A stretch of DNA of 13,855 nt from positions 1 to 13,855 of the forward strand of contig JAHRXB010000163.1 in NCBI GenBank assembly GCA_019104905.1. Direction: 5' to 3'. Below the pieces are notes generated by a model that ran no database searches, was not told where the DNA came from, and worked only from the letters and a program-made list of their open reading frames with translations. Shown piece after piece: positions 2,279 to 13,855 of this stretch. Source of the stretch: Bdellovibrio sp. Its GTDB lineage: Bacteria; Bdellovibrionota; Bdellovibrionia; Bdellovibrionales; Bdellovibrionaceae. Position 1 is the stretch's first letter; each line of letters begins with the position of its first letter. The position numbers and the translations under genes are program-made.

Positions 2279-2479
2279 ATGAAAAACAGTGCCTACAAAA
2301 GCCTCGACCAGTTGGTCGGCGGTCCCGACGAACGCGTCCCCCTCTCCACGAGAGTTAAGAAAGACACAAAAGCCTACCTAAATCGTGAGGCCAAAACTCG
2401 CGGACTCACCGTCTCCACGCTTTCGGCGGCGATTTTAGATGATTACTGCAAAACGTTCCAAAAAGGTAAGAAGGGGTAG
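2279..2479 (+). CDS. Small ribbon-helix-helix-like regulator, 66 aa
   Basis: This is a short basic protein with an RHH-type layout. A strand-like RVPLSTRVKKD segment (about 19-29) is followed by a helix (about 30-41), a GLTVS turn (42-46), and a second helix ending in DDYCKTF. RHH proteins dimerise, insert paired strands into the DNA major groove and commonly bind tandem or palindromic operators. The ATG at 2279 follows a GAGG SD (2267-2270). The stop lies only 2 nt before the Type ISP ATG, and the AAGGGG SD of that enzyme is inside this gene, so translation is probably coupled. By position it could regulate the restriction enzyme, as control proteins do in some Type II systems. That role is inference. 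Confidence 0.75.
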   Translation: MKNSAYKSLDQLVGGPDERVPLSTRVKKDTKAYLNREAKTRGLTVSTLSAAILDDYCKTFQKGKKG

Positions 2480-2481
2480 TC

Positions 2482-5400
2482 ATGGTATCGGCTAAAATCA
2501 CTTCCATCCACGATCTACTCGAGCAATACAATGACCGTATAGTAAATCAGCGCGACAAAGGCACAAGCTTCGAGCGGCTTATGAAAAGCTATCTCGAGTT
2601 AGACCCACTTTATCAAGATCAGTTCAAGAAGGTTTATCTTTGGGGAGAGTGGCCGCACAAGACGACGGGCCAAGATTACGGTATCGATTTAGTAGCTGAG
2701 GGGCTCGATGGCGAGTTCACGGCTATCCAATGCAAGTTCTACGCGGCTTCTTATCAGGTTCAGAAAAAAGACATCGACTCATTCTTTAATGAATCAGGTA
2801 AGACCTTTACAGTTGATGGCAAGAAAAGGTCCTTTGCTCGAAGGATCATCATTTCAACATCAGACAACTGGAGTGAGCCTGCTGAAAAGTCCCTTCAAGG
2901 CCAAACAATCCCAGTTAGCCGCATTCATGTGAGAGAGCTTGAGCAAAGCCCAATCGATTGGTCAAAATTCAGCCTAGACAAACCTGAAAAGCTATCTTTG
3001 AAAGAAAAGAAAAAACTGAGACCTCACCAGCAGGAAGCTATTGGTAAAGTCATTGCCGGATTCAAAGAGGGCGACCGAGGCAAGCTCATCATGGCTTGCG
3101 GAACTGGTAAAACCTTTACCGCCCTTAAGCTTGCCGAGAAGGTCACAAAAAAAGAGGGCCTTATTTTATTCTTGGTTCCATCGATCTCTTTGCTGTCGCA
3201 GACCCTTCGCGAGTGGAGCGCTGAATCTGAAACACCCTTCCATGCTTTTGCGGTTTGCTCTGATAGCAAAGTCGGCAAACACAGCGAGGACATTTCAAAG
3301 CATGACCTTTCGATTCCGGCATCCACAGACGCAACTTCTTTGATCAAGGGCCTAGAGCGAGTCAAAAAAGATAAAAAGATGACAGTCATCTTCTCGACTT
3401 ATCAATCGATTGATGTTGTAAGCCAAGCTCAAAAGAAGGGACTTCCAGAATTTGACCTGATCATTTGTGACGAGGCTCACCGAACCACAGGTGTGACTTT
3501 AGTAGATAAGGAAGAATCCCACTTCGTTAAGGTTCACGAGCAAAAATTCATCAAAGGCAAAAAGCGAATCTATATGACTGCAACACCTAGAATTTTTGGT
3601 GATGCAGCTAAAACAAAGGCCGATGAGGCTGGGGCCGAGCTTTGCTCTATGGACGACGTGTCCCTTTACGGGCCGGAGTTTCACCGACTTGGATTTGGTA
3701 AAGCTGTCAGTGAGCATCTTCTTACAGATTACAAGGTTCTTGTCCTTGCGATTGATGAGAGCATCATTGATCCGAAGTTTCAGAAACGATTTGCGGATGA
3801 AAACCAAGAGATTCAACTTGAAGACATCGCAAAGATCATTGGCTGCTGGAACGGTTTATCAAAGCTATTTGTTGGCGAGGAGGCTGAGGTTGAAGATCGG
3901 CTGCCAATGAAGCGGGCTGTTGCTTTTGCTAGAGCCATCAAAGACTCAAAGCAAATCGCATCTGTATTTCAGAACGTCGTTCAGGAATACATCAAAAAGA
4001 ATCCTCAGCTTGATAATGTCTTAAACTGTGAGCTGGCTCATGTGGATGGAACCTTTAACGTTCTTGACCGAAATGCCAAACTCGATTGGTTAAAAGAAGA
4101 AGCTCCTGAAAATACCTGCCGCATTCTAACCAATGCTCGTTGCCTATCAGAAGGGGTCGATGTTCCAGCTCTTGATGCAGTTCTTTTCTTAAACCCTCGA
4201 GACTCAATGGTTGATGTGGTTCAATCTGTTGGTCGCATCATGCGTAAAGCCGAAGGAAAAAAGTACGGTTATGTCATTCTTCCAATCGGTATTCCAGCAG
4301 GTGTGCCCCCTGATGAAGCACTCAAAGACAACAAGAAGTACAAAGTCGTCTGGCAGGTGCTCCAAGCCTTGAGAGCCCATGACGACAGGTTCGATGCTGA
4401 GATTAACAAGATTGATCTCAATAAAAACAAGTCTTCAATGATCCAAGTGATCGGTGTTGGCAATGGCGAGAGGGAAGCCGGTGAAGGTAAAAGTAACCAA
4501 CCTCAGCAGCTAGCCTTTAATCTTCCAGAAATCGAAGAGTGGAAGGACGCAATCTACGCAAAGATCGTTCTGAAATGCGGTAGCCGCCCTTACTGGGAGA
4601 ACTGGGCCGCCGACGTCGCAAAGATCGCAGAGAAACATACAAAACAGATTCAAAAGCTACTCAAGTCCGATGACCCGAAACCCAAGAAGACTTTTGAAAA
4701 GTTCTTAAACGGAATCAGAAAGAACTTAAATCCATCAATCTCTGAGACCGATGCGATTGAGATGCTCTCACAGCAGCTCATCACAAAGCCGGTCTTTGAT
4801 GCCTTGTTTGAGCATTACAAGTTCACCGAAATGAACCCCGTATCTCAATCCATGCAATCAGTTCTGAAGGTATTTGAAGCGGGAACCATGAAAGAGGACG
4901 CGGCCACGCTGAAGTCCTTCTATGACAGCGTCAGAATGCGAGTTCGCGGTATCAACAACGCCGAAGCCCGACAGCGCGTGATCAAAGAACTTTATGATCG
5001 ATTCTTTAACGTCGCATTCAAGAAGATGTCCGAGCGTCTTGGCATTGTCTACACCCCAATAGAAGTGGTCGATTTTATCATCCAAAGCGTTGAAGACGTG
5101 ATGCAAGCTGAGTTCGGCAAGAGCCTTTCTGATGAAGGCGTTCACATCTTGGACCCATTCACCGGAACTGGGACGTTCATAGTTCGGCTTCTTCAAAGCG
5201 GAATCATCAAACCCCAAGATCTCAAAAGAAAGTTTGCGAGTGAGATTCACGCTAATGAGATCGTGCTACTTGCCTACTATATTGCATCCGTAAACATAGA
5301 AGAGACTTATCACGAACTGACTGGTGGAGAATACAAGCCGTTTGAGGGGGCAGTACTAGCAGATACGTTTCAACTTACTGAAGCCCCTATGCAGGGCTCC

Positions 5401-7299
5401 TTTGATGCGGCCTTGCCGGAGATTCATCGTCGAGTAGAGAGTCAAAAGAAAAAGAAAATCTCCGTTGTTATAAGTAATCCGCCATACTCAGTAGGACAGA
5501 CTGATGCAAACGACAACAATCAAAATCTCGAGTATCCAGAGTTAGACTCAAAGATTCGAAAAAGCTACGCAGAGGAATCAAAAGCAACGAATAAGAATAG
5601 CCTTTATGATTCGTACATACGGGGAATCAAATGGGCATCTGAACGGATAGCCGACGAGGGTGTAATTGGATTCGTTACCAATGGTTCATTCATCGACAGC
5701 AATGCCGCTGACGGGTTAAGAAAGTGCCTCGGTAAAGAGTTTTCAAAGATTTACTGCTTTAATCTTAGAGGAAACGCAAGAGCCTCAGGTGAAGAACGCC
5801 GCAAAGAGAAAGGGAATGTTTTTGGAGAGGGCTCACGAACTCCAGTTGCGATAACACTTCTATTAAAGTCGAGATCTAACAATAAATCAGGTGAGATTTT
5901 TTATTACGACATTGGGGACTATCTTTCCCAATCTGAAAAGCTAAAAATTGTATCAAGCTTCAAGAGCATTCGGACCATTCCTTGGGTAAAAATTCAGCCA
6001 AATCAGGATGGCGACTGGATAAACCAGCGCACGCCTGAGTTTGAAACATTTTTATCGATTGGAGAAAAGACGGAGGGTAGTGCTCGATCGGTCTTTGGTA
6101 TCTACTCCGCGGGAGTTAAGACGAATCGAGACTCTTGGTGCTATAACTTTTCAGCCAAAGAATTAGGTTCAGTTATGAGCAGAATGATTGCCTTCTATAA
6201 TTCAGAAGTAAGTCGCTTTGAAAGCATATCTCGAACTCAAAATGCAGGTATTGATGTCGATGAGTTCGTTAACAATGATCCCCAAAAAATTAGCTGGAAT
6301 CGTAGTTTGAAAGCTGACCTAGGTAGGTTTCGGAAATTCAGTTACCAAGAAGAATCTGTGTTTACTAGCACTTATCGGCCGTACTGTGCGACAAATTTAT
6401 ACATGAATAAGCACTTTAACGATATGACCTATAGGATTCCAAAGCTCTTTCCAACACCTCGACATAGCAACATTGTTTTTAGCGTAACTGGGTTAGGAAT
6501 TACCAAGCCATTTTCTCTTCTTATATCTAAGCGAGTACCAGATGTTCAATTGCTGGCTAACGGACAATGCTTTCCACTTTACTTCTATGAGCAGGCTGAA
6601 GAACACGAAACAGCAGATATGTTCAGTGATTCATTGATCACAGATGAGGATGGATACATAAAGCGACATGCTATTACAGATTTTGCGCTTACGAAGTTTC
6701 AAGCGGCTTATAGCGACAAGAAAGTGTCCAAAGAAGAAATCTTCTATTACATCTATGGACTCCTTCACTCGCCGATCTACAGAAGTAAGTATCAAAACGA
6801 TTTGAAGAAGATGTTGCCTCGTATTCCTTTTGCAAAAGACTTTTGGGGTTACAGCAAAAAGGGTCGAGAGCTTGCCGAAGTACATCTAAACTACGAATCT
6901 ATTGAGCCATTCAACCTCACAGAAGAGATTAAAGAGGGCGCACCCAAAAAGGCCAAAGAGCTTTATCGAGTCAATGAGGCTGGGATGAAGTTCCCTAAAG
7001 CCAAAAAGGAAGAAGATAGAACAACGATCATCTTCAATCAGTTCGTTACCCTAAAGGGCATCCCTGAGTCGGCATACGAATACGTGGTCAATGGTAAGCC
7101 TGCAATTGAATGGATAATGGAGAGATACGCAGTTACAACAGACAGAGATAGCGGAATCAAGAATGATCCCAATGAGTGGTCTGACGACCCTAGATACATT
7201 GTAGATCTTGTGAAAAGAATTGTTCGCGTAAGCCTTGAAACAAATCGAATTGTAAGTGAACTGCCGAAGTTTGAACTTATAGAAGAAAAGAAGCCTTAA
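2482..7299 (+). CDS. Type ISP restriction-modification enzyme (LlaGI/LlaBIII-like), 1605 aa
   Basis: This is a single-chain restriction enzyme, helicase/translocase and methyltransferase. In order: an Mrr-like PD-(D/E)XK nuclease with E31, D69 and Q83-x-K85; a superfamily 2 ATPase with Walker A ACGTGKT (205-211), DEAH (330-333), TAT (366-368) and QSVGRIMR (581-588); a helical coupler; an N6-adenine methyltransferase with DPFTGTGTF (891-899, AdoMet binding) and NPPY (999-1002, catalytic); and a C-terminal region of about 600 residues expected to recognise the target. Order and length match Type ISP enzymes such as LlaGI, about 1.58 kaa. Family members methylate one strand of an asymmetric site, translocate along DNA and cut after convergent collision. 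All key motifs are present and there is no frameshift, so it is probably active. The target sequence cannot be read from the protein. Confidence 0.95.
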   Translation: MVSAKITSIHDLLEQYNDRIVNQRDKGTSFERLMKSYLELDPLYQDQFKKVYLWGEWPHKTTGQDYGIDLVAEGLDGEFTAIQCKFYAASYQVQKKDIDSFFNESGKTFTVDGKKRSFARRIIISTSDNWSEPAEKSLQGQTIPVSRIHVRELEQSPIDWSKFSLDKPEKLSLKEKKKLRPHQQEAIGKVIAGFKEGDRGKLIMACGTGKTFTALKLAEKVTKKEGLILFLVPSISLLSQTLREWSAESETPFHAFAVCSDSKVGKHSEDISKHDLSIPASTDATSLIKGLERVKKDKKMTVIFSTYQSIDVVSQAQKKGLPEFDLIICDEAHRTTGVTLVDKEESHFVKVHEQKFIKGKKRIYMTATPRIFGDAAKTKADEAGAELCSMDDVSLYGPEFHRLGFGKAVSEHLLTDYKVLVLAIDESIIDPKFQKRFADENQEIQLEDIAKIIGCWNGLSKLFVGEEAEVEDRLPMKRAVAFARAIKDSKQIASVFQNVVQEYIKKNPQLDNVLNCELAHVDGTFNVLDRNAKLDWLKEEAPENTCRILTNARCLSEGVDVPALDAVLFLNPRDSMVDVVQSVGRIMRKAEGKKYGYVILPIGIPAGVPPDEALKDNKKYKVVWQVLQALRAHDDRFDAEINKIDLNKNKSSMIQVIGVGNGEREAGEGKSNQPQQLAFNLPEIEEWKDAIYAKIVLKCGSRPYWENWAADVAKIAEKHTKQIQKLLKSDDPKPKKTFEKFLNGIRKNLNPSISETDAIEMLSQQLITKPVFDALFEHYKFTEMNPVSQSMQSVLKVFEAGTMKEDAATLKSFYDSVRMRVRGINNAEARQRVIKELYDRFFNVAFKKMSERLGIVYTPIEVVDFIIQSVEDVMQAEFGKSLSDEGVHILDPFTGTGTFIVRLLQSGIIKPQDLKRKFASEIHANEIVLLAYYIASVNIEETYHELTGGEYKPFEGAVLADTFQLTEAPMQGSFDAALPEIHRRVESQKKKKISVVISNPPYSVGQTDANDNNQNLEYPELDSKIRKSYAEESKATNKNSLYDSYIRGIKWASERIADEGVIGFVTNGSFIDSNAADGLRKCLGKEFSKIYCFNLRGNARASGEERRKEKGNVFGEGSRTPVAITLLLKSRSNNKSGEIFYYDIGDYLSQSEKLKIVSSFKSIRTIPWVKIQPNQDGDWINQRTPEFETFLSIGEKTEGSARSVFGIYSAGVKTNRDSWCYNFSAKELGSVMSRMIAFYNSEVSRFESISRTQNAGIDVDEFVNNDPQKISWNRSLKADLGRFRKFSYQEESVFTSTYRPYCATNLYMNKHFNDMTYRIPKLFPTPRHSNIVFSVTGLGITKPFSLLISKRVPDVQLLANGQCFPLYFYEQAEEHETADMFSDSLITDEDGYIKRHAITDFALTKFQAAYSDKKVSKEEIFYYIYGLLHSPIYRSKYQNDLKKMLPRIPFAKDFWGYSKKGRELAEVHLNYESIEPFNLTEEIKEGAPKKAKELYRVNEAGMKFPKAKKEEDRTTIIFNQFVTLKGIPESAYEYVVNGKPAIEWIMERYAVTTDRDSGIKNDPNEWSDDPRYIVDLVKRIVRVSLETNRIVSELPKFELIEEKKP

Positions 7300-7581: not shown

Positions 7582-7689
7582 ATTTACCTCAATCCAGTGT
7601 CGCCGCACAATTCAGGCCAACTTCATTGGCGCCTCATTTTCAATCCACAATAATTTTGTCCGAAATACGGATCTTTCGTTCTTGATAAA

Positions 7690-7716
7690 TTGTGCTACAA
7701 GAATCTTGTGCTACAA
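7690..7716 (+). promoter_or_regulatory. Tandem palindromic operator boxes TTGTGCTACAA
   Basis: Two identical 11-bp boxes occupy 7690-7700 and 7706-7716, separated by 5 bp (16-bp period). Each is itself a palindrome (TTGT-GCT-ACAA). A weak extended -10-like TGCTACAAA (7709-7717) overlaps the second box, so a bound protein could block transcription. Paired short palindromes are typical RHH operators. The next gene, at 7742, encodes an RHH-like protein, which suggests autoregulation. Confidence 0.6.
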
Positions 7717-7741
7717 ACTATTTGGTGTCAAACTTAGAGCG

Positions 7742-7972
7742 ATGCAAAAAAAGAAAGACCCAAAACTTCCATCTGACTACGAGACGCTACGGATACGTAT
7801 GCCTCCCGAAATTGAACTGGAGAAAATCATGGATGAAGTTGAGAAGGTTAGGAAGCAGTTGAACAAGAAGAAGCCGCCAAGTCGGAAGGTTTGGATGGGA
7901 AATCACGTACTTCTTGCCGCTATTAAGCTGGGTTTAAAGGATCTTCGAGAAGGAGAGGCTCCACCTCTGTAA
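7742..7972 (+). CDS. Small RHH-like DNA-binding protein, 76 aa
   Basis: This small, highly charged protein has a strand-like ETLRIRMPPE segment (about residues 14-23) followed by a helix. A basic linker (KKKPPSR) leads to a second helix (about 50-67, including NHVLLAAIKLGLKDL). This resembles an RHH fold with an extended first helix, but the match is weaker than for the other two RHH proteins here. I prefer the ATG at 7742. A TTG start at 7682 would turn the twin palindromic boxes upstream into coding sequence. The SD is weak (AGAG, close to the start). The tandem operator lies 26 bp before the start and suggests self-regulation. It could instead be the antitoxin-like half of an incomplete pair, but no toxin-like partner is recognisable. 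Confidence 0.6.
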   Translation: MQKKKDPKLPSDYETLRIRMPPEIELEKIMDEVEKVRKQLNKKKPPSRKVWMGNHVLLAAIKLGLKDLREGEAPPL

Positions 7973-8010
7973 CTTGTTGGGGTCAATCTAAAGTAGATAA
8001 AAATAGAAAT

Positions 8011-8439
8011 ATGGCGAGACCAAAAGGACTTCAAAAAACTGGGGGACGACAAAAAGGGACCCCGAATAAGCGTACAAACGGCTTTCTAGATACTCTGGAC
8101 AGCAAGGGCATCAACTTGCTTGAAGAAGTATTGGACGAAGCCATGGCGCTTGAAGGCCGAGAGAAGGCCAACATCCTGCTAGATCTTCTTCCATACATTT
8201 ATCCAAAGCGAAGGCCAACAGAAGTACCTGCGTTTTCTATGAGCGACCACCTAGCATCACTCTCCATAACGGAACTAGCCAACCTTCGCACAGAGATTAG
8301 TCGCTTGATGGGAGAGGGTAAATCGCTTGAAGAGATTACTGATGAACAACTGGAACAATACAAAGCTCAAGCAGAACGCACTTTAATTGCCATCAACAAT
8401 CTTCGAAGTTTAAGGGATGATCCTTACAGCGACGCTTAG
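8011..8439 (+). CDS. Basic-tailed hypothetical protein with AT-hook-like motif, 142 aa
   Basis: The N-terminus has ARPKG (2-6) and then TGGRQKGTPNKRT (10-22), a basic Gly/Arg/Pro motif that resembles an AT-hook. From experience this motif occurs at the start of many small phage and mobile-element proteins. The rest is largely helical and acidic, with Leu-rich segments from about residue 75 onward. The ATG at 8011 lacks a clear SD. A TAGATA (7994-7999) could be a -10 giving an almost leaderless transcript, but no good -35 supports it. The last 4 bp overlap the convergent DUF4268 gene, with interleaved stop codons (TAG 8437-8439 on plus, TAA 8438-8436 on minus). DNA binding is plausible; the actual role is unknown. 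Confidence 0.65.
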   Translation: MARPKGLQKTGGRQKGTPNKRTNGFLDTLDSKGINLLEEVLDEAMALEGREKANILLDLLPYIYPKRRPTEVPAFSMSDHLASLSITELANLRTEISRLMGEGKSLEEITDEQLEQYKAQAERTLIAINNLRSLRDDPYSDA

Positions 8440-9392
8440 TTTGCATCGAGTCCATTCAAAAATGGCTTTATAGCTTTTTCTAGCCGTATCATGGAGTCTA
8501 GCATCTGATCCTGCAATTCAGACCATCTTTCAACCTGGGCGAGGCCGGAAGAAGAGATTGTCTTTCTTATCCGAGAAGCCCGCTTTGAATCGAGTCGGTC
8601 CCATTCAAGGCTTCCGCCAAACATAGTTTCAATCTTTTCTTTATCCCTAAGAAGAAGATCAAAAATGCGTTTGTTCTGCTCGCCTGAATTTTTATCTGTG
8701 TCGATATAAAAATCCACTGAAGCGGAATCGTTCCCGATGACGTAGGTGTATTTAATCCCACTAATTCCCGCACCAACACCAATCCAATGGTACTTACCAG
8801 GCGAAGTGTTGCTGAATAGTTTTGTTTTGCCTTTACTCTTTTCAAGTAAGCCCGCCCAAAACTCTTGCCGGTTTTGATGTCGGGACGCCCACTCTTTCTT
8901 TTGTTCACCCAATTCCTTAGCCTGGTTTGTCGGAGCAGCTAAAACTGAAAAAAGTGGTGCATAAGGGGAATCTCCGATGCGAACAGCTTCTACCTTAACA
9001 AGATAAAATCCAACTTCAGACGATGAGGATTCGTTGAGCCATTCGATCACCTTTTGATGTTCAGGACGTGCCTCTGTAGAGATCCAGATTGCAATCTGAG
9101 CTTCCATTCCGATCATGTATGTTAAAATCTGACCAAGATGGCTGTGATTGGTTCTTTCGAGTTGATTTTCAATAACGACCTGTTGGCCTTCTTCGTCTTC
9201 GCATACAAGATCTATAATAAAATCGCCAACTCGCTTTTCGCGACCAGTAACTGACAACTGTAGCCCTAATCTTTCAGATAGAACATCAATGTGATTTTCA
9301 AGCCACTTGGTAAAGTCGTACGCTTCGTGCGCAAAGGCTTGTCTTACGGGAAGGATTTCAAGTCTCGAGACCTCAGGAGTCCTGTTACTCAT
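8436..9392 (-). CDS. DUF4268 protein with N-terminal PD-(D/E)XK nuclease-like domain, 318 aa
   Basis: The N-terminal domain has a PD-(D/E)XK-like pattern. An FTKWLENHIDVL helix (27-38) precedes GDFIID (56-61), and the strand VVIENQ (72-77) carries an E-x-Q in place of the usual E-x-K, followed by a HLGQILTY helix. The C-terminal half (about 170-310) resembles DUF4268, with REFWAGLLEK, a YHWIGVGAG strand and an alternating charged/hydrophobic end. Such proteins are commonly annotated as uncharacterised nucleases near restriction genes. Nuclease activity and DNA substrate are inferred. It is the last gene of a three-gene operon. Its ATG overlaps the XRE stop by 4 bp (ATGA), with an AAGGG SD 7 nt before it, so its expression should follow the regulator's. 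The Lys-to-Gln change is tolerated in some PD-(D/E)XK families. Confidence 0.8.
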   Translation of the reverse strand: MSNRTPEVSRLEILPVRQAFAHEAYDFTKWLENHIDVLSERLGLQLSVTGREKRVGDFIIDLVCEDEEGQQVVIENQLERTNHSHLGQILTYMIGMEAQIAIWISTEARPEHQKVIEWLNESSSSEVGFYLVKVEAVRIGDSPYAPLFSVLAAPTNQAKELGEQKKEWASRHQNRQEFWAGLLEKSKGKTKLFSNTSPGKYHWIGVGAGISGIKYTYVIGNDSASVDFYIDTDKNSGEQNKRIFDLLLRDKEKIETMFGGSLEWDRLDSKRASRIRKTISSSGLAQVERWSELQDQMLDSMIRLEKAIKPFLNGLDAN

Positions 9393-9751
9393 GACTTACC
9401 CTTCACTCTTCGAAATTTAATCTCGAAGACTCCCCCGATCCACTCGTCGCCCATAAGAGCGTTTAACTCTTGATGCTTAGCGCTTTTTTCATCGGCACCG
9501 TTACCGAACATGAGATTGTCCAGGCTAACTCCCAATGAGTCGGCGACCTTCTTTACCTGCTTTACGTCTCGGGGATTGCTTCCGCTCAGCCAACCTGAAA
9601 GTGATTGCTTGGGAACGCCAGCTTTGCGCGCAAGTTGCGCAGCGGTCATATCATTTGCATCGAGATAAAATCGAAGTTGTTTCTTAAGAGTCATCGGAAG
9701 AACAATCGGGCGTTTTGTTTCCAATTTTAATAGAGCGTCCGACTTACTCAT
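9389..9751 (-). CDS. XRE-family helix-turn-helix regulator, 120 aa
   Basis: A Cro/cI-type helix-turn-helix spans about residues 22-83. It contains LKKQLRFYLDANDMTAAQLA, then RKAGVPKQSLSGWLSGSNP, and ends with VADSLGVSLDNLMFG. The N-terminal 20 residues are an extra tail. The C-terminus ends in a basic strand-like GGVFEIKFRRVKG. XRE proteins usually act as repressors, dimerising on palindromic operators. An SD GAGG lies 7 nt before the ATG. Both ends overlap neighbours by ATGA, with the recombinase stop upstream and the nuclease start downstream, so the three proteins are translationally linked. It is the natural candidate to repress this operon, possibly through the palindrome at 10485-10504. 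That target is inferred. Confidence 0.9.
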   Translation of the reverse strand: MSKSDALLKLETKRPIVLPMTLKKQLRFYLDANDMTAAQLARKAGVPKQSLSGWLSGSNPRDVKQVKKVADSLGVSLDNLMFGNGADEKSAKHQELNALMGDEWIGGVFEIKFRRVKGKS

Positions 9752-10467
9752 ACTAAATCCTCATCATCGGACTTTTGGTCCTCAACTCCGTACTTTTCGG
9801 TGTTGCCAATGGCCTTGCCTTCCGCACCCAAAACGACCGTATTTAGAGCAGTGAATTTTGTCGGGTTGGGCGTGTTTTCAACGGGGGATTTTTGAGCGTT
9901 TTTAATCGCCCTCGAAATTGTACCCATATGAGCGCCCGTTTCTTTTTGTATCTCGCGGTAGCTTTTGCCTTGATGATGAAGTTCAATGATCTTCGCCTCA
10001 TCGTGGATACGTGGTCTTCCAAACTTTTTCCCCATCGACTTTGCGTGTTCGAGGCCCATCATAGTACGTTCGCGCAGCAGGGACCTCTCAAACTCGCCCA
10101 AGCTCCCTAATACCTGAACAAAGAACCTTCCGGATGGGGTTGAGTAGTCCACATTGTCTTTGAGCGCTACAAACTTAACACCAATCTTTTCAAACTCTTC
10201 AAGGGTAGAAACTAAGTGCTTCAGGCTTCGAAATAGTCGATCCATTTTAACAACCATCACAACGTCCACTTCTTTGGATCTGACAAGACTCATTAGCCGC
10301 TTTAAGCCTGGTCGATTGTCAGTCGAACCGCTGTAGCCATGATCGACTAATTCTTCAGTGATAGACCATCCTCGATTGGTACAAGCTTTTCTAAGTTCTT
10401 CTATTTGAACTTGAGGGTTCTGATTATGATGGCTCGTGGATACACGGGAATACGTAACTGCTTTCAT
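9748..10467 (-). CDS. Serine recombinase, resolvase/invertase class, 239 aa
   Basis: This is a small serine recombinase that cuts and rejoins DNA through a covalent 5'-phosphoserine. YSRVS (6-10) places the nucleophile at S10. KMDRLFRS (74-81) supplies the catalytic Arg residues, and GEFERSLLRER (122-132) begins the dimer-interface helix. A GRPR linker (150-153) leads to a C-terminal helix-turn-helix (about 157-190). About 45 further residues, acidic at the end, extend beyond the usual length of this class. I start at the ATG at 10467, which gives the family-typical MKAVTYSRVS. An ATG at 10476 is equally possible, and neither has a strong SD. Its stop overlaps the XRE start by ATGA. Functions in the class include resolution, inversion and transposition; the target site here is unknown. 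Confidence 0.92.
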   Translation of the reverse strand: MKAVTYSRVSTSHHNQNPQVQIEELRKACTNRGWSITEELVDHGYSGSTDNRPGLKRLMSLVRSKEVDVVMVVKMDRLFRSLKHLVSTLEEFEKIGVKFVALKDNVDYSTPSGRFFVQVLGSLGEFERSLLRERTMMGLEHAKSMGKKFGRPRIHDEAKIIELHHQGKSYREIQKETGAHMGTISRAIKNAQKSPVENTPNPTKFTALNTVVLGAEGKAIGNTEKYGVEDQKSDDEDLV

Positions 10468-10484
10468 AAAATTCATCTTATCGC

Positions 10485-10504
10485 ATTGCATTACAATATG
10501 CAAT
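10485..10504. promoter_or_regulatory. Palindrome in the recombinase/RHH divergent promoter gap
   Basis: A perfect 7-bp inverted repeat, ATTGCAT (10485-10491) and ATGCAAT (10498-10504), has a 6-nt spacer and is centred in the short gap between the recombinase and RHH starts. A tentative minus-strand promoter, TTGAAA (10530-10525) with TGTATT after 17 bp (10507-10502), overlaps it. Binding here could control both directions. The XRE and RHH proteins are both candidate ligands. Confidence 0.5.
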
Positions 10505-10531
10505 ACAAATGTACTGTGATAGGCTTTCAAC

Positions 10532-10711
10532 ATGAGCAAACTTGAAATTCCAAAAAAAGAAAAGAGAAACAAGGCCTTAACGGTTCGTCTCCCCGAGGAT
10601 ACGGTCGAAAAACTAAAAGAGATCGCCGAAAGACATGAAGCCAGCCAGGCCGATGTTATTAAGGCCCTTATTGAAAAGGCTTACTCAGATCTAAAACCAA
10701 AGCGAAAGTAG
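10532..10711 (+). CDS. Ribbon-helix-helix protein (CopG/Arc-like), 59 aa
   Basis: This compact protein fits the RHH pattern well. A basic tail is followed by the strand ALTVRLPED (15-23), helix 1 (TVEKLKEIAERH), a turn (EASQ) and helix 2 (ADVIKALIEKAYSDL), with a basic end. The LTVRLPED strand is a typical RHH signature. It probably binds DNA as a dimer and could act on the palindrome just upstream, controlling itself and the divergent recombinase operon. It is followed 5 nt later by the start of the 64-aa gene, whose SD overlaps this stop codon, so the two are probably co-translated. RHH proteins are often antitoxins, but the partner does not look like a known toxin. No strong SD is visible before its ATG. 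Confidence 0.8.
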   Translation: MSKLEIPKKEKRNKALTVRLPEDTVEKLKEIAERHEASQADVIKALIEKAYSDLKPKRK

Positions 10712-10716
10712 GAAGA

Positions 10717-10911
10717 ATGAAAAGAGATGAGATAGACGCACTTGAAATGACTGGTTCGGAATACTTAACTCCCTGCTGTATCTTGTACCGAGATCTCTTT
10801 GCGGAAATTCAGAATCCGCCAGACCAGGGAGATTTTCACGAAGAAGTTCATCAATGCATTTTTTGTGGGGAAAAGATGCTCCTTGAGTTTTCTCGCCAGA
10901 ATGTTCACTAG
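10717..10911 (+). CDS. Small cysteine-containing protein, 64 aa
   Basis: I do not recognise a family. Four cysteines stand out, CC at residues 20-21 and C47-x-x-C50 in HQCIFCGEK, a spacing consistent with a small zinc-ribbon-like fold in a mainly acidic protein. Metal binding is inference. The start is supported by the SD AGGAAG placed over the preceding TAG, 5 nt downstream of the RHH gene, so the pair looks like an operon. In an RHH-led pair this position is sometimes held by a toxin, but no RelE, MazF, PIN or similar motif is visible. It ends 7 bp before the stop of the convergent 229-aa gene. Confidence 0.65.
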   Translation: MKRDEIDALEMTGSEYLTPCCILYRDLFAEIQNPPDQGDFHEEVHQCIFCGEKMLLEFSRQNVH

Positions 10912-10918
10912 ATTCAAC

Positions 10919-11608
10919 TTAAGCCTTTTCAAAGGCGTCAAGGTACGAATAAACGCCTAATTCCAGTTCATCAGCCATATCTCGTCTAAAAAGAATCTTT
11001 CGATAAGTTTTAACGGATTCATCTATAGATTTTTTATCCCTGCTTTTAGAAAGCATTTTTAAAGTGTTCTCTTTAATTCTTGCTTTAAAATCTCCAGTAC
11101 GAGCGAATCCGTCGCGATTCACCTTCGGAAAATAGAAAGGCAGGTCAGCGTTTTTGCCGTATCTCTGTTCGGACCAAGAATGAAACGCACCTTTATTCTC
11201 GATAAACTCCAAAAGTGATTCCGTTAGTTTCGGATTTCGATTTGCTTCCTCAATAACGGCTAAAAACCAAAGTTCAAAGTTTCCCGTTAATGTTTTTCGT
11301 CCCGGCTTTTTTAAGGCTTGTAGAAAGTCGCTATTCCCTTTCAAGACCATTTGGGCCTCTTTCATAAACTGAGATCGTGCCGTTAAAAGTGGTGACCGTA
11401 GTTTGTTGATTTCAGGAAGAACTTTCTTGAGAATCGAAACATCTTTTTTCATAGTTTCGATCGATCCAACCGAAGCGATAAGTTTAGAAATCTTCGCCTC
11501 AACCCTCGGCGCATACTTGGAAGTCGGTTTGAGTCCATAGAATCCGCATAGTACCTCTGCAATCAGTATTGCTTCTTTCTGCCAAATGGGAAGTTTATCA
11601 AAATTCAT
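10919..11608 (-). CDS. Hypothetical protein, 229 aa
   Basis: I do not recognise this protein. I place the start at the ATG at 11608, which has GAGGA very close upstream. A TTG three codons earlier is the other option. The protein is basic and apparently mostly helical. There is a hydrophobic first helix (about 8-27, including EAILIAEVLCGFYGL), a Lys-rich helical region to about residue 95, a KKPGRKTLTG loop (about 100-109), and an FELWFLAVIEEA helix. The C-terminal half is charged. The hydrophobic stretch is too interrupted by charge to be a clear membrane segment. It is divergent from the Vsr-like nuclease across about 190 bp and convergent with the 64-aa gene. A hairpin-forming GCCTTT/AAAGGC (10923-10936) overlaps its last codons. 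No catalytic signature is evident. Confidence 0.7.
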   Translation of the reverse strand: MNFDKLPIWQKEAILIAEVLCGFYGLKPTSKYAPRVEAKISKLIASVGSIETMKKDVSILKKVLPEINKLRSPLLTARSQFMKEAQMVLKGNSDFLQALKKPGRKTLTGNFELWFLAVIEEANRNPKLTESLLEFIENKGAFHSWSEQRYGKNADLPFYFPKVNRDGFARTGDFKARIKENTLKMLSKSRDKKSIDESVKTYRKILFRRDMADELELGVYSYLDAFEKA

Positions 11609-11799
11609 GGTCCTCAATTCTCGGTTTTCTCACGTCGTTCCGCGTGTCTTTAACCGTGCATCTTAGTTCTGCGATTTACGTTAATCATAATAACCGAGCA
11701 CGTGCCCAAGAAACAATATGTGGTGGAATTTGCCGGACAATTCTGCCCTTAAATCAAGGATTTACCCGTTATAGCGGGCGACATCCTAAGGGGTTAGGT
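11609..11799. promoter_or_regulatory. Divergent promoter region and multi-hairpin leader of the Vsr-like gene
   Basis: The gap between divergent genes has overlapping -10-like boxes, CATAAT on plus (11686-11691) and TATGAT on minus (11689-11684), but no good -35. Downstream are four stems in series: GAATT/AATTC (11726-11743), TAAATC-AAG-GATTTA (11750-11764), CCCG(T)-TATA-(G)CGGG (11765-11778) and CCTAA-GGGG-TTAGG (11785-11798). The last stem exposes a GGGG SD in its loop 1 nt before the ATG. This suggests control of ribosome access, which is inferred. Confidence 0.4.
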
Positions 11800-12579
11800 A
11801 TGAGCAAAGTCGAAGAGAAGAAACCAGAATCGAACAAAAAAACTAAAGCGAACATTTGGCGAGAGCATATGACGGAAAACCGAAACGCCAATGAGGATTG
11901 TGTAAGGTTGTCCATGATGCTTTCCCTGTACGGCAGGCTTTTTGGAGAGCGAACCAGATTCAATCAGTCAATTACACGAGTTCGTATTCAATCAAAGAAC
12001 AAGCGTCCTTCTCTAAGGGATCTAAAAAACCACTATCAAGTGATAGTGGCTGACCTTTCACATAGCGGTAAAAAAGCCATGGAGCGAACAGGGAGCGAGG
12101 AGATCGTGCGACGTACTCTAAAAGAAATGGGGAGCAATTTTATTCTCACCTCAGCTTGGATTGGTCGAAAGAATGTAGATCTCTTGCTACCTGGACTTAC
12201 GGGCTTAACTCGAGGGCAGGAAGGGCGTGGTATCCGATTCACAGGTGTGGCCATCGAGGTGGATGGAGCCGTCCACGACTTTACTCCAAAGTTTCTAGGA
12301 GACTTTGCTAAAGACAATTTTCTGAGTTTGATAGGAATTTTGCCAGTGCGAATTAGGAATGAAGAAACTCGCCGGAAAAACGTATTGGATGCACTTCGAG
12401 AAATGTCAGTTTATTCGGCCATGGATTCGAGGGCCAAAAGAAGAATGTGGAAGCGTATTTATCTTACTACTATTTTTCTCAATTGGAGGCCTCAGCAAAT
12501 TGAAGAAGTGTTCGGAATCAACTACGCGGCGGCAAAGCGACAAATCATTCAGCTCCTTTCGCTAGAAGGGAGTGTCTAA
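11800..12579 (+). CDS. Vsr/DUF559-like predicted endonuclease, 259 aa
   Basis: The middle of the protein resembles the Vsr/DUF559 branch of PD-(D/E)XK nucleases. It has an acidic helix GSEEIVRRTL (98-107), an NVDLLLPG strand with D127, a VAIEVDG strand with E153 and D155, H159-D160, and a later KDNFLSLIGILPVRI segment (171-185) typical of the fold's end. Residues 1-70 form a basic, Lys-rich extension. The C-terminus (about 215-253) looks helix-turn-helix-like and may bind DNA. DNA cleavage or nicking is inferred. The ATG at 11800 follows AAGGGG and TTAGGT. Earlier in-frame codons run into the divergent gene and lack support. Its TAA overlaps the next gene's ATG (TAATG), so it is coupled to a 51-aa ORF and probably to the large recombinase. 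It is unlike ordinary Vsr repair proteins in its added N- and C-terminal parts. Confidence 0.75.
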   Translation: MSKVEEKKPESNKKTKANIWREHMTENRNANEDCVRLSMMLSLYGRLFGERTRFNQSITRVRIQSKNKRPSLRDLKNHYQVIVADLSHSGKKAMERTGSEEIVRRTLKEMGSNFILTSAWIGRKNVDLLLPGLTGLTRGQEGRGIRFTGVAIEVDGAVHDFTPKFLGDFAKDNFLSLIGILPVRIRNEETRRKNVLDALREMSVYSAMDSRAKRRMWKRIYLTTIFLNWRPQQIEEVFGINYAAAKRQIIQLLSLEGSV

Positions 12580-12734
12580 TGTCAGACGGAAAGCCAAAGG
12601 CTCAATCGAACGAGACGCCTCATCAAAAGCTTCCTCAATATACCGCCGTTGAAGTTCGCAAAGCCGTTGAGGCGATCAGGCTTTTAATCAAAGTCAGAGA
12701 CCGTTGTCGGGAACAGGGCCTCATTAAGTGGTAA
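12579..12734 (+). CDS. Small coupled ORF, 51 aa
   Basis: This is a short ORF whose ATG shares one base with the preceding TAA (TAATG), the classic arrangement for reinitiation. The product has a polar N-terminus (SDGKPKAQSNETPHQK), then a probable amphipathic helix (about 22-46, including VEVRKAVEAIRLLIKVRDRC), ending in LIKW. I recognise no family. The tight coupling to the nuclease suggests a small partner or inhibitor, but that rests on position alone. It ends 79 bp before the large serine recombinase, so all three genes may form one transcript. Confidence 0.55.
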   Translation: MSDGKPKAQSNETPHQKLPQYTAVEVRKAVEAIRLLIKVRDRCREQGLIKW

Positions 12735-12763
12735 TGACAGAGAATTAGACAACTTTAGAACTG

Positions 12764-12811
12764 GGGATTTCTGGATTTTTATGGGGAAATCCCTTAAAAG
12801 ACCGGAGGTCT
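12764..12811 (+). promoter_or_regulatory. Two hairpins before the large recombinase, second enclosing the SD
   Basis: The first stem is GGGATTTC (12764-12771) with GAAATCCC (12786-12793), 8 bp around a 14-nt loop. The second is AGACC-GGA-GGTCT (12799-12811), a perfect 5-bp stem with a 3-nt loop. The SD GGAGGT (12804-12809) lies in its loop and 3' arm, so folding would hide it. Translation may need upstream ribosomes or unfolding. The pairing is observed and the control is inferred. Confidence 0.5.
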
Positions 12812-12813
12812 CT

Positions 12814-13855
12814 ATGGAAACAAATTGGATTGGAAGAAACAGAAAGGCGATTGCACCTCTTCGAGTAAGCAGTAGCGGTCAGGAGGGCAATACCTCTTGG
12901 TTGACTCAAAAGCGCGAGTGTGAAGAGTATTGCAAGCGCCACGGACTTGAGTTGATTGAGGCTGTAGCTATCGTTGAAACGGCCCGCAAATCAGAACTTC
13001 GCAAGAAGTACAAAACGGCTATTTCAAAAGCGCTCAAAAATGGTGTTCAACATATTCTCTTTCACAAATACGATCGCGAAGCTCGAAATTTGACGGACAA
13101 TGAGCAAAATGAAGATTTGGTTCGGCAGGGAAAAGTTGTTCTACATTATATCGCCGACAATAAAATTCTTCACGCCGGTAGCCCCGACTCTGAATTTTTC
13201 AATCGAGACATACAGGCAGCTATCAATAAAAATTACTCTCGCGATTTAAGTACAAAGGTGCGCAAATCTCATCGAGCCAAGGCTGAATCAGGATGGTGGC
13301 CAGGTTGCCGACCGCCCGATGGATACATCCAACAAAAGCCTAAGAATGAAAAAGGGTTTGAACGGCGGCGCGGTTCTGTGATCGTCCCTGATACCAATAT
13401 ACAGGCCGTAAGGCGCGTACAGCGCGAATTTGAGATTCGAGCCGAAGTTCCGACACCATCACTCAAAGAAATTAGAAATAGAATTATCGCTGAAGGGTTA
13501 ATTCCTCAGGATCAAGTTCATAAATACCATCCTAGTCTCGTTGAGAAACATTTAAAGAACATCTTTTATGATGGCCGGTTCGAATGGCTTGGCGTTGAAT
13601 ATGAAGGCAAGCATGAACGTATAATTACGTCTGAATTGTTTTGGAAAGTTCAGGAAACTTTTGGAAAAAAGAATAACTTCAGAAAGAATCCAAACGCCCT
13701 GTTCGGCCATGGATATATGAAATGCGCTGATGCTTCTTGCGGGTGTTCAATTATCTTTGATCCTAAAGTGAAGACCATCAAAGAAACTGGCGAAGTAAAA
13801 ACCTACAAATACTATCGATGCTCAAATGGCAAAAGGGTTCATCAAAGTCTCAAGG
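12814..13855 (+). CDS. Large serine recombinase, partial (3' end beyond the window)
   Basis: At least 347 residues are present, open to the window edge. The N-terminal domain has LRVSSSGQEGNTS (16-28), with S19 as the likely nucleophile, and a KYDREARN block (85-92) with catalytic Arg residues. A recombinase domain follows (about 150-290, including WWPGCRPPDGY), then the start of a zinc ribbon with C304, C309, C311 and C336. This order matches large serine recombinases that integrate and excise phages, transposons and SCCmec-like elements. The Tyr usual before the x-R-V-S core is replaced (APLRVS), and the helix linking the domains includes an unusually long polar insert. The SD GGAGGT before the ATG at 12814 is strong but sits in a hairpin. 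Such genes often lie near an element end; no attachment site can be identified from this window alone. Confidence 0.9.
   Translation, partial: METNWIGRNRKAIAPLRVSSSGQEGNTSWLTQKRECEEYCKRHGLELIEAVAIVETARKSELRKKYKTAISKALKNGVQHILFHKYDREARNLTDNEQNEDLVRQGKVVLHYIADNKILHAGSPDSEFFNRDIQAAINKNYSRDLSTKVRKSHRAKAESGWWPGCRPPDGYIQQKPKNEKGFERRRGSVIVPDTNIQAVRRVQREFEIRAEVPTPSLKEIRNRIIAEGLIPQDQVHKYHPSLVEKHLKNIFYDGRFEWLGVEYEGKHERIITSELFWKVQETFGKKNNFRKNPNALFGHGYMKCADASCGCSIIFDPKVKTIKETGEVKTYKYYRCSNGKRVHQSLK

Follow-up and report, generated by a model that had tools for sequence, protein, structure and literature searches.

Why should a small serine recombinase, an XRE-type regulator and a DUF4268 protein be encoded together in a predatory bacterium, and what could such a combination do? 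We addressed this question for a window of 13,855 nucleotides from Bdellovibrio sp., which is the whole stretch of DNA analysed and the entire contig C56 of its genome (2.93 Mb, assembled into 317 contigs). In this window, the three genes are intact minus-strand open reading frames (ORFs) that read as one operon. The same gene order recurs in two relatives, G002 and G024, where it lies within islands, and in the island of a further genome, G022 (Bdellovibrio sp. KM01, from the same genus as the window genome), the third gene has been exchanged. From these observations we infer the regulation and function of the operon throughout, and we consider it fairly probable that it serves an integrative, phage-satellite-like island of Bdellovibrio as its dormancy (immunity) operon.

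Gene order and junctions of the operon

Neighbouring genes of the operon overlap by exactly ATGA, at 9389–9392 between the DUF4268 and XRE genes and at 9748–9751 between the XRE and recombinase genes. ORF reading and Pfam searches confirm the coordinates and families that a preliminary description had given for a three-gene, minus-strand operon with two such overlaps. The recombinase gene has an alternative start at 10476 (MNFMKAV..., 9748–10476); sequence comparison shows that its relatives begin at the position equivalent to 10467 (MKAV..., 9748–10467). An ATGA overlap as such is ordinary in bacteria, and it is the conservation of order and junction, not any single overlap, that exceeds chance here. 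The XRE/third-gene junction is ATGA in all four operons compared (window, G002, G024 and G022), one of which (G022) has another gene in third place. Between the recombinase and XRE genes the junction is less constant: ATGA in the window and G022, a 1-nt overlap in G024 and a 2-nt gap in G002.

The trio is not confined to one genome, an outcome that would have told against the preliminary description: it is present in three genomes of two genera, namely the window genome, G002, which belongs to its genus, and G024, from a second genus of the family. A DUF4268 match was detected in 5/99 genomes in the search of relatives and in 8/143 genomes of the class, both counts including the window's own genome. 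Among species-genome loci (the best 80 of at least 538 DUF4268 loci, 7 of these 80 having too little upstream DNA to judge), profile searches placed both a recombinase and an XRE gene beside DUF4268 in a single case, L008, which is G024. Since no XRE gene of the same profile was found in 79 of these 80 loci, DUF4268 is seemingly independent of XRE there. The preliminary description had suggested checking for conservation across unrelated hosts; within the relatives, class and species-genome searches, no such host turned up with the trio. In G096, a genome of the same order and another family, a DUF4268-like match is preceded by an XRE gene of the same profile, with no recombinase (L007, 325–1992).

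Islands in the relatives and exchange of the third gene

The stretches that hold the operon in G002 and G024 measure ~19.6 and ~19.9 kb, respectively, and lie between tRNA-Met and an integrase/excisionase pair. The combination of an integrase with a tRNA/att site by which phage satellites are recognised is found in G002, G024 and G022, with an exact att repeat (16 nt) in G022 only; the island ends in G002 and G024 are approximate, because the far end was placed at a poorly matching copy of the tRNA 3′ terminus. The operon of G002 and G024 is convergent with a large terminase gene (phrog_38, 1e-112), which is adjoined by a small terminase gene (phrog_4102 in G002, its G024 counterpart being 98% identical), and a ribbon-helix-helix (RHH) gene stands in the equivalent place in G002, G024 and G022. 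No structural gene besides the terminases was detected among the 13 of 24 G002 island genes scanned against PHROGs; the trio was covered via its window homologues, and three more genes were compared with PADLOC only. On this basis we regard the islands as resembling satellites more than complete prophages, a reading that the remaining G002 genes could change.

The islands of G002 and G024 share 14 backbone genes that are 83–99% identical, compared with 54–86% for 10 flanking chromosomal genes (Mann–Whitney p = 1.2e-4, with three more shared island genes from the variable region, 31, 37 and 50% identical, left out of the test). In the variable region of G002, PADLOC returned a strong match to PDC-S14 (1.4e-80), together with a methylase (1e-7) and a restriction enzyme (9.6e-11) that were matched less well and only in part; hits in G024, likewise partial, were of the methylase (1.7e-19), restriction-enzyme (1.5e-9) and ZacB/DrmC (2.8e-11 and 9.4e-10) types. 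Three of the ten variable-region proteins submitted had no PADLOC match.

The G022 island keeps the recombinase and XRE genes, and its ATGA-coupled third slot holds a protein that is unrelated in sequence to DUF4268 and is predicted to have a PD-(D/E)XK nuclease fold. This protein has no Pfam, PADLOC or PHROGs match, and a word-based search across 5.8 billion protein sequences retrieved only three other relatives. Sequence kinship differs between the parts of the operon. The DUF4268 protein of the window is 58% identical to those of G002 and G024. The window recombinase is 72% identical to that of G022 and 53–54% to those of G002 and G024, and the window XRE protein is 53% identical to that of G022 and 71–73% to those of G002 and G024. 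Tree support is 99 for the window–G022 pair of recombinases and 74, a moderate value, for the XRE grouping of the three DUF4268 operons. Because the recombinase and the XRE protein have different closest relatives, the XRE gene seems to accompany the nuclease gene, and the recombinase gene the island backbone; an exchange of recombinase against XRE–cargo is only suggested, given the moderate XRE support.

The recombinase is therefore probably not dedicated to the nuclease. Such a pairing is not supported, given the other cargo of the recombinase–XRE pair, the single occurrence of the trio in the species-genome loci and a window recombinase closest to that of an island without DUF4268, beside an XRE closest to those of DUF4268 islands. 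From the idea in the preliminary description of a mobile defence module or self-mobilising nuclease, the predicted nuclease fold, the candidate defence family and the mobile context in relatives are supported; a dedicated recombinase–nuclease machine is not.

The DUF4268 protein

The DUF4268 protein matches Pfam PF14088 (2e-33) and, over its full length, the PADLOC family PDC-S11 (PDLC04914, 1.1e-124, residues 6–315). The S in this family name denotes a single gene, unlike the situation here, where the protein is the product of the third gene of an operon. Its N-terminal domain is predicted to adopt an EndoMS/NucS-like nuclease fold with D61, E75 and Q77 as putative active-site residues, Gln77 being invariant across an alignment of 20 sequences. 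An assignment as NucS proper was rejected: the protein reached 20.8 bits in the curated NucS model, whose cut-off is 216, and has Gln77 in the place of the catalytic lysine that is present in NucS, and it is for these two reasons not filed as NucS.

In the literature, 90% of 10 P. aeruginosa strains carrying PDC-S11 are reported to fall in the resistant group, a correlation, a co-occurrence of PDC-S11 was noted in S. suis, and DUF4268 is said to be most often associated with GmrSD domains; no direct test of the anti-phage activity of PDC-S11 was seen in the papers found. PDC-S11/DUF4268 is a candidate phage-defence family of PADLOC, with putative activity.

The recombinase and the XRE regulator

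The XRE protein matches the helix-turn-helix (HTH) family HTH_3 (4.6e-9) and passes the cut-off of Phage_CI_repr (26.5 bits, cut-off 22). The recombinase matches PF00239 Resolvase (4.6e-44) and retains the sequences YSRVST, KMDRLFRS and GEFER, which we take to be the catalytic motifs of the serine recombinase family. It resembles Tn3-type resolvases in its catalytic domain and in having a probable control region that is short and divergent. An ordinary transposon resolvase of the Tn3 family, the outcome that the preliminary description had set against its own proposal, was nevertheless not supported: no transposase was found among 10 window proteins scanned with Pfam, and no strong inverted or terminal repeats at 7600–13855, the best candidates being 27 nt at 70% or 16 nt at 94%.

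Members of the same XRE subfamily also occur with no adjoining recombinase, at L163:4005-7284 (61% identical to that of the window) and L165:5672-6697. Both precede a 341-aa protein family that is outer-membrane-like by eye, and in L163 the 341-aa gene is followed by that of a protein with a trypsin domain and a PADLOC match to RT-Protease_XI.

A proposed dormancy operon and its alternatives

In the mechanism that we propose, the XRE protein would act as a CI-like repressor, keeping the divergent operon that runs from the RHH gene to the integrase gene silent during integration. Since the XRE and third genes are ATGA-coupled, the nuclease would be produced along with the repressor, i.e. in the dormant state, and the resident island would shield its host and itself from incoming phages through DNA cutting, much as lambda produces rexAB together with cI. 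The recombinase, encoded ahead of the XRE gene, would be part of the island backbone, probably resolving multimers of the excised circle and/or binding the divergent control region.

Several observations weigh against this proposal. Neither an att pair nor a tyrosine integrase was seen on the window contig itself, which ends inside a recombinase gene, so the island status of the window rests on its relatives. There, the tRNA 3′-end copies are mismatched at 6 (G002) and 5 (G024) of 20 positions, and similarly poor matches elsewhere in these regions mean that the repeat is not clearly above chance; the scan for structural genes covered 13 of 24 genes of the G002 island, and the window RHH protein is only ~25% identical to those of the relatives. 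No promoter match was found in the 64-bp gap ahead of the recombinase gene, and the third catalytic position of the DUF4268 protein is glutamine, not lysine. In addition, the slot is not always filled by a nuclease, since in 10 of 11 distant recombinase–XRE pairs the next gene product resembles, by eye, a lipoprotein, secreted or membrane protein, and G056 has an XRE–cargo pair with no recombinase and with three genes between the pair and TerL.

If the regulator and nuclease instead formed a toxin–antitoxin-like pair, the XRE would be an antitoxin/autorepressor and the nuclease a toxin, serving island stability or abortive defence. The HTH gene does come first, with the ATGA-coupled nuclease gene second, XRE genes of this type appear to accompany DUF4268, and there is a very weak match of the XRE to a HipB-type antitoxin model (17.6 bits, cut-off 79); yet related XRE genes precede surface- or secreted-looking proteins, and no XRE of the same profile was found in 79 of the 80 species-genome loci, making such a pair unlikely. 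We also regard as improbable a stand-alone PDC-S11 gene in a defence island, with the recombinase and XRE genes as mobile-element passengers that have no regulatory link to it. While this would fit the wide occurrence of DUF4268 without recombinase and XRE, and the other defence genes on the window contig, it is at odds with the ATGA coupling of the XRE and third genes in all four operons and with the closer XRE kinship among DUF4268 operons.

The XisF–XisH–XisI proteins of the cyanobacterial fdxN element likewise combine a serine recombinase with a PD-(D/E)XK-like-fold protein, and the nuclease-fold protein might control the recombinase as XisH does XisF. This is very unlikely: XisF is a large recombinase, and with 96.4 bits the window recombinase stays below the 375-bit cut-off of its equivalog model (465 positions), the fold is widespread and XisH does not give the best match to it, the fifth-best recombinase (in G048) precedes a secreted-looking protein, DUF4268 mostly occurs without a recombinase, and the recombinase and XRE differ in their nearest relatives. 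Scarcely credible is an invertase switch, in which the recombinase would flip a segment turning the nuclease on or off, since a match to the DNA invertase family phrog_125 (2.5e-54) is set against the lack of strong inverted repeats at 7600–13855 and a promoter-side gap of just 64 bp.

Other genes of the window and its genome

The 142-aa protein convergent with DUF4268 had no labelled family in the PHROGs scan; as its relative in G056 is encoded directly upstream of, and overlapping, the large terminase gene, it is probably small-terminase-like. The large serine recombinase at the contig end is possibly the integrase of the window's island. A separate contig of the window genome, C256, ends in an integrase gene (L228, 9643–10743) whose product is 67–68% identical to the integrases of the islands, and which adjoins host genes orthologous to those flanking the tRNA-Met islands of G002 and G022. 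It probably marks another island at the same site, or part of the window's island.

The Type ISP enzyme gene is preceded by a 66-aa ORF (2279–7299 together) that resembles, by eye, a small gene beside the recombinase in L157. At 1376–2182, on the minus strand, a protein is encoded that matches the PADLOC candidate PDC-S31 (2.8e-21) and phrog_34615. A 258-aa protein encoded near the large serine recombinase (11803–12579) has, by eye, a Vsr/DUF559-like nuclease segment and no Pfam, PADLOC, PHROGs or NCBIfam match.

Table 1 Features of the operon, its surroundings and the exchanged third gene.
Feature	Position	Strand	Remarks
Type ISP restriction-modification enzyme	2482..7299	+	PADLOC REase_MTase_IIG, 2229 bits; further defence gene of the contig
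142-aa protein	8011..8439	+	Convergent with DUF4268; probably small-terminase-like, by synteny
DUF4268 protein (PADLOC PDC-S11), 318 aa	8436..9392	-	N-terminal PD-(D/E)XK (EndoMS/NucS-like) domain, predicted, and C-terminal DUF4268 domain
XRE/CI-type regulator, 120 aa	9389..9751	-	HTH match; C-terminal GxFE...RRVK tail common to relatives
Small serine recombinase (resolvase/invertase class), 239 aa	9748..10467	-	Motifs YSRVST, KMDRLFRS, GEFER
RHH–recombinase intergenic region, 64 bp	10468..10531	.	Probable control region
Arc-like RHH protein, 59 aa	10532..10711	+	Divergent from the operon
Large serine recombinase (Resolvase and Recombinase domains)	12814..13855	+	Cut by the contig end
Third-slot protein of G022, 189 aa	L148:6652-7221		Bdellovibrio sp. 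KM01; predicted PD-(D/E)XK fold

Discussion

A dormancy (immunity) operon would have a close regulatory parallel in lambda cI–rexAB, and other prophages also have repressor-linked defence genes. In both cases, the cargo lies directly downstream of, and is coupled to, a CI-type regulator; in the islands, unlike in lambda, a recombinase gene precedes the regulator, and the cargo has a predicted PD-(D/E)XK fold or, elsewhere, is secreted- or lipoprotein-like.

With phage satellites (PICI, P4-like and PLE), the islands have in common a terminal integrase plus excisionase, a tRNA target, a size of ~14–20 kb, terminase gene(s) of their own and defence cargo; no capsid or tail gene was seen among the island genes scanned, which may be a further common trait. 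They differ in their predatory host, in the small serine recombinase of the repressor operon, and in the large serine recombinase that is the window's candidate integrase. P4 and PLE satellites are reported to carry anti-phage systems (PMC8628076). Tab, of the Pseudomonas prophage JBD26, is described as lying between terminase genes, on the other strand and with its own promoter; like the nuclease gene proposed here, it is a defence gene opposite the terminase genes' strand that is expressed from a dormant element, but it blocks tail assembly and is not a nuclease operon (PMC10884400). Little was found in the literature on satellites of predatory Bdellovibrio, with no title on such islands among the matches listed.

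Beyond the dormancy operon itself, we entertain only tentatively, as a rather doubtful extension, that the islands represent a new phage-satellite family of predatory bacteria. In such a family, a switch made of a small serine recombinase and an XRE repressor would be combined with an exchangeable immunity slot for unrelated PD-(D/E)XK nucleases, so that recombination state and defence would be coupled via one operon, with the nuclease possibly acting in island recombination. Searches of the slot marked by the recombinase–XRE pair could bring up new immunity genes, and this slot has already yielded, in G022, a protein with a predicted nuclease fold that matched none of the three family collections searched. 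The operon also makes the role of the candidate family PDC-S11 directly testable.
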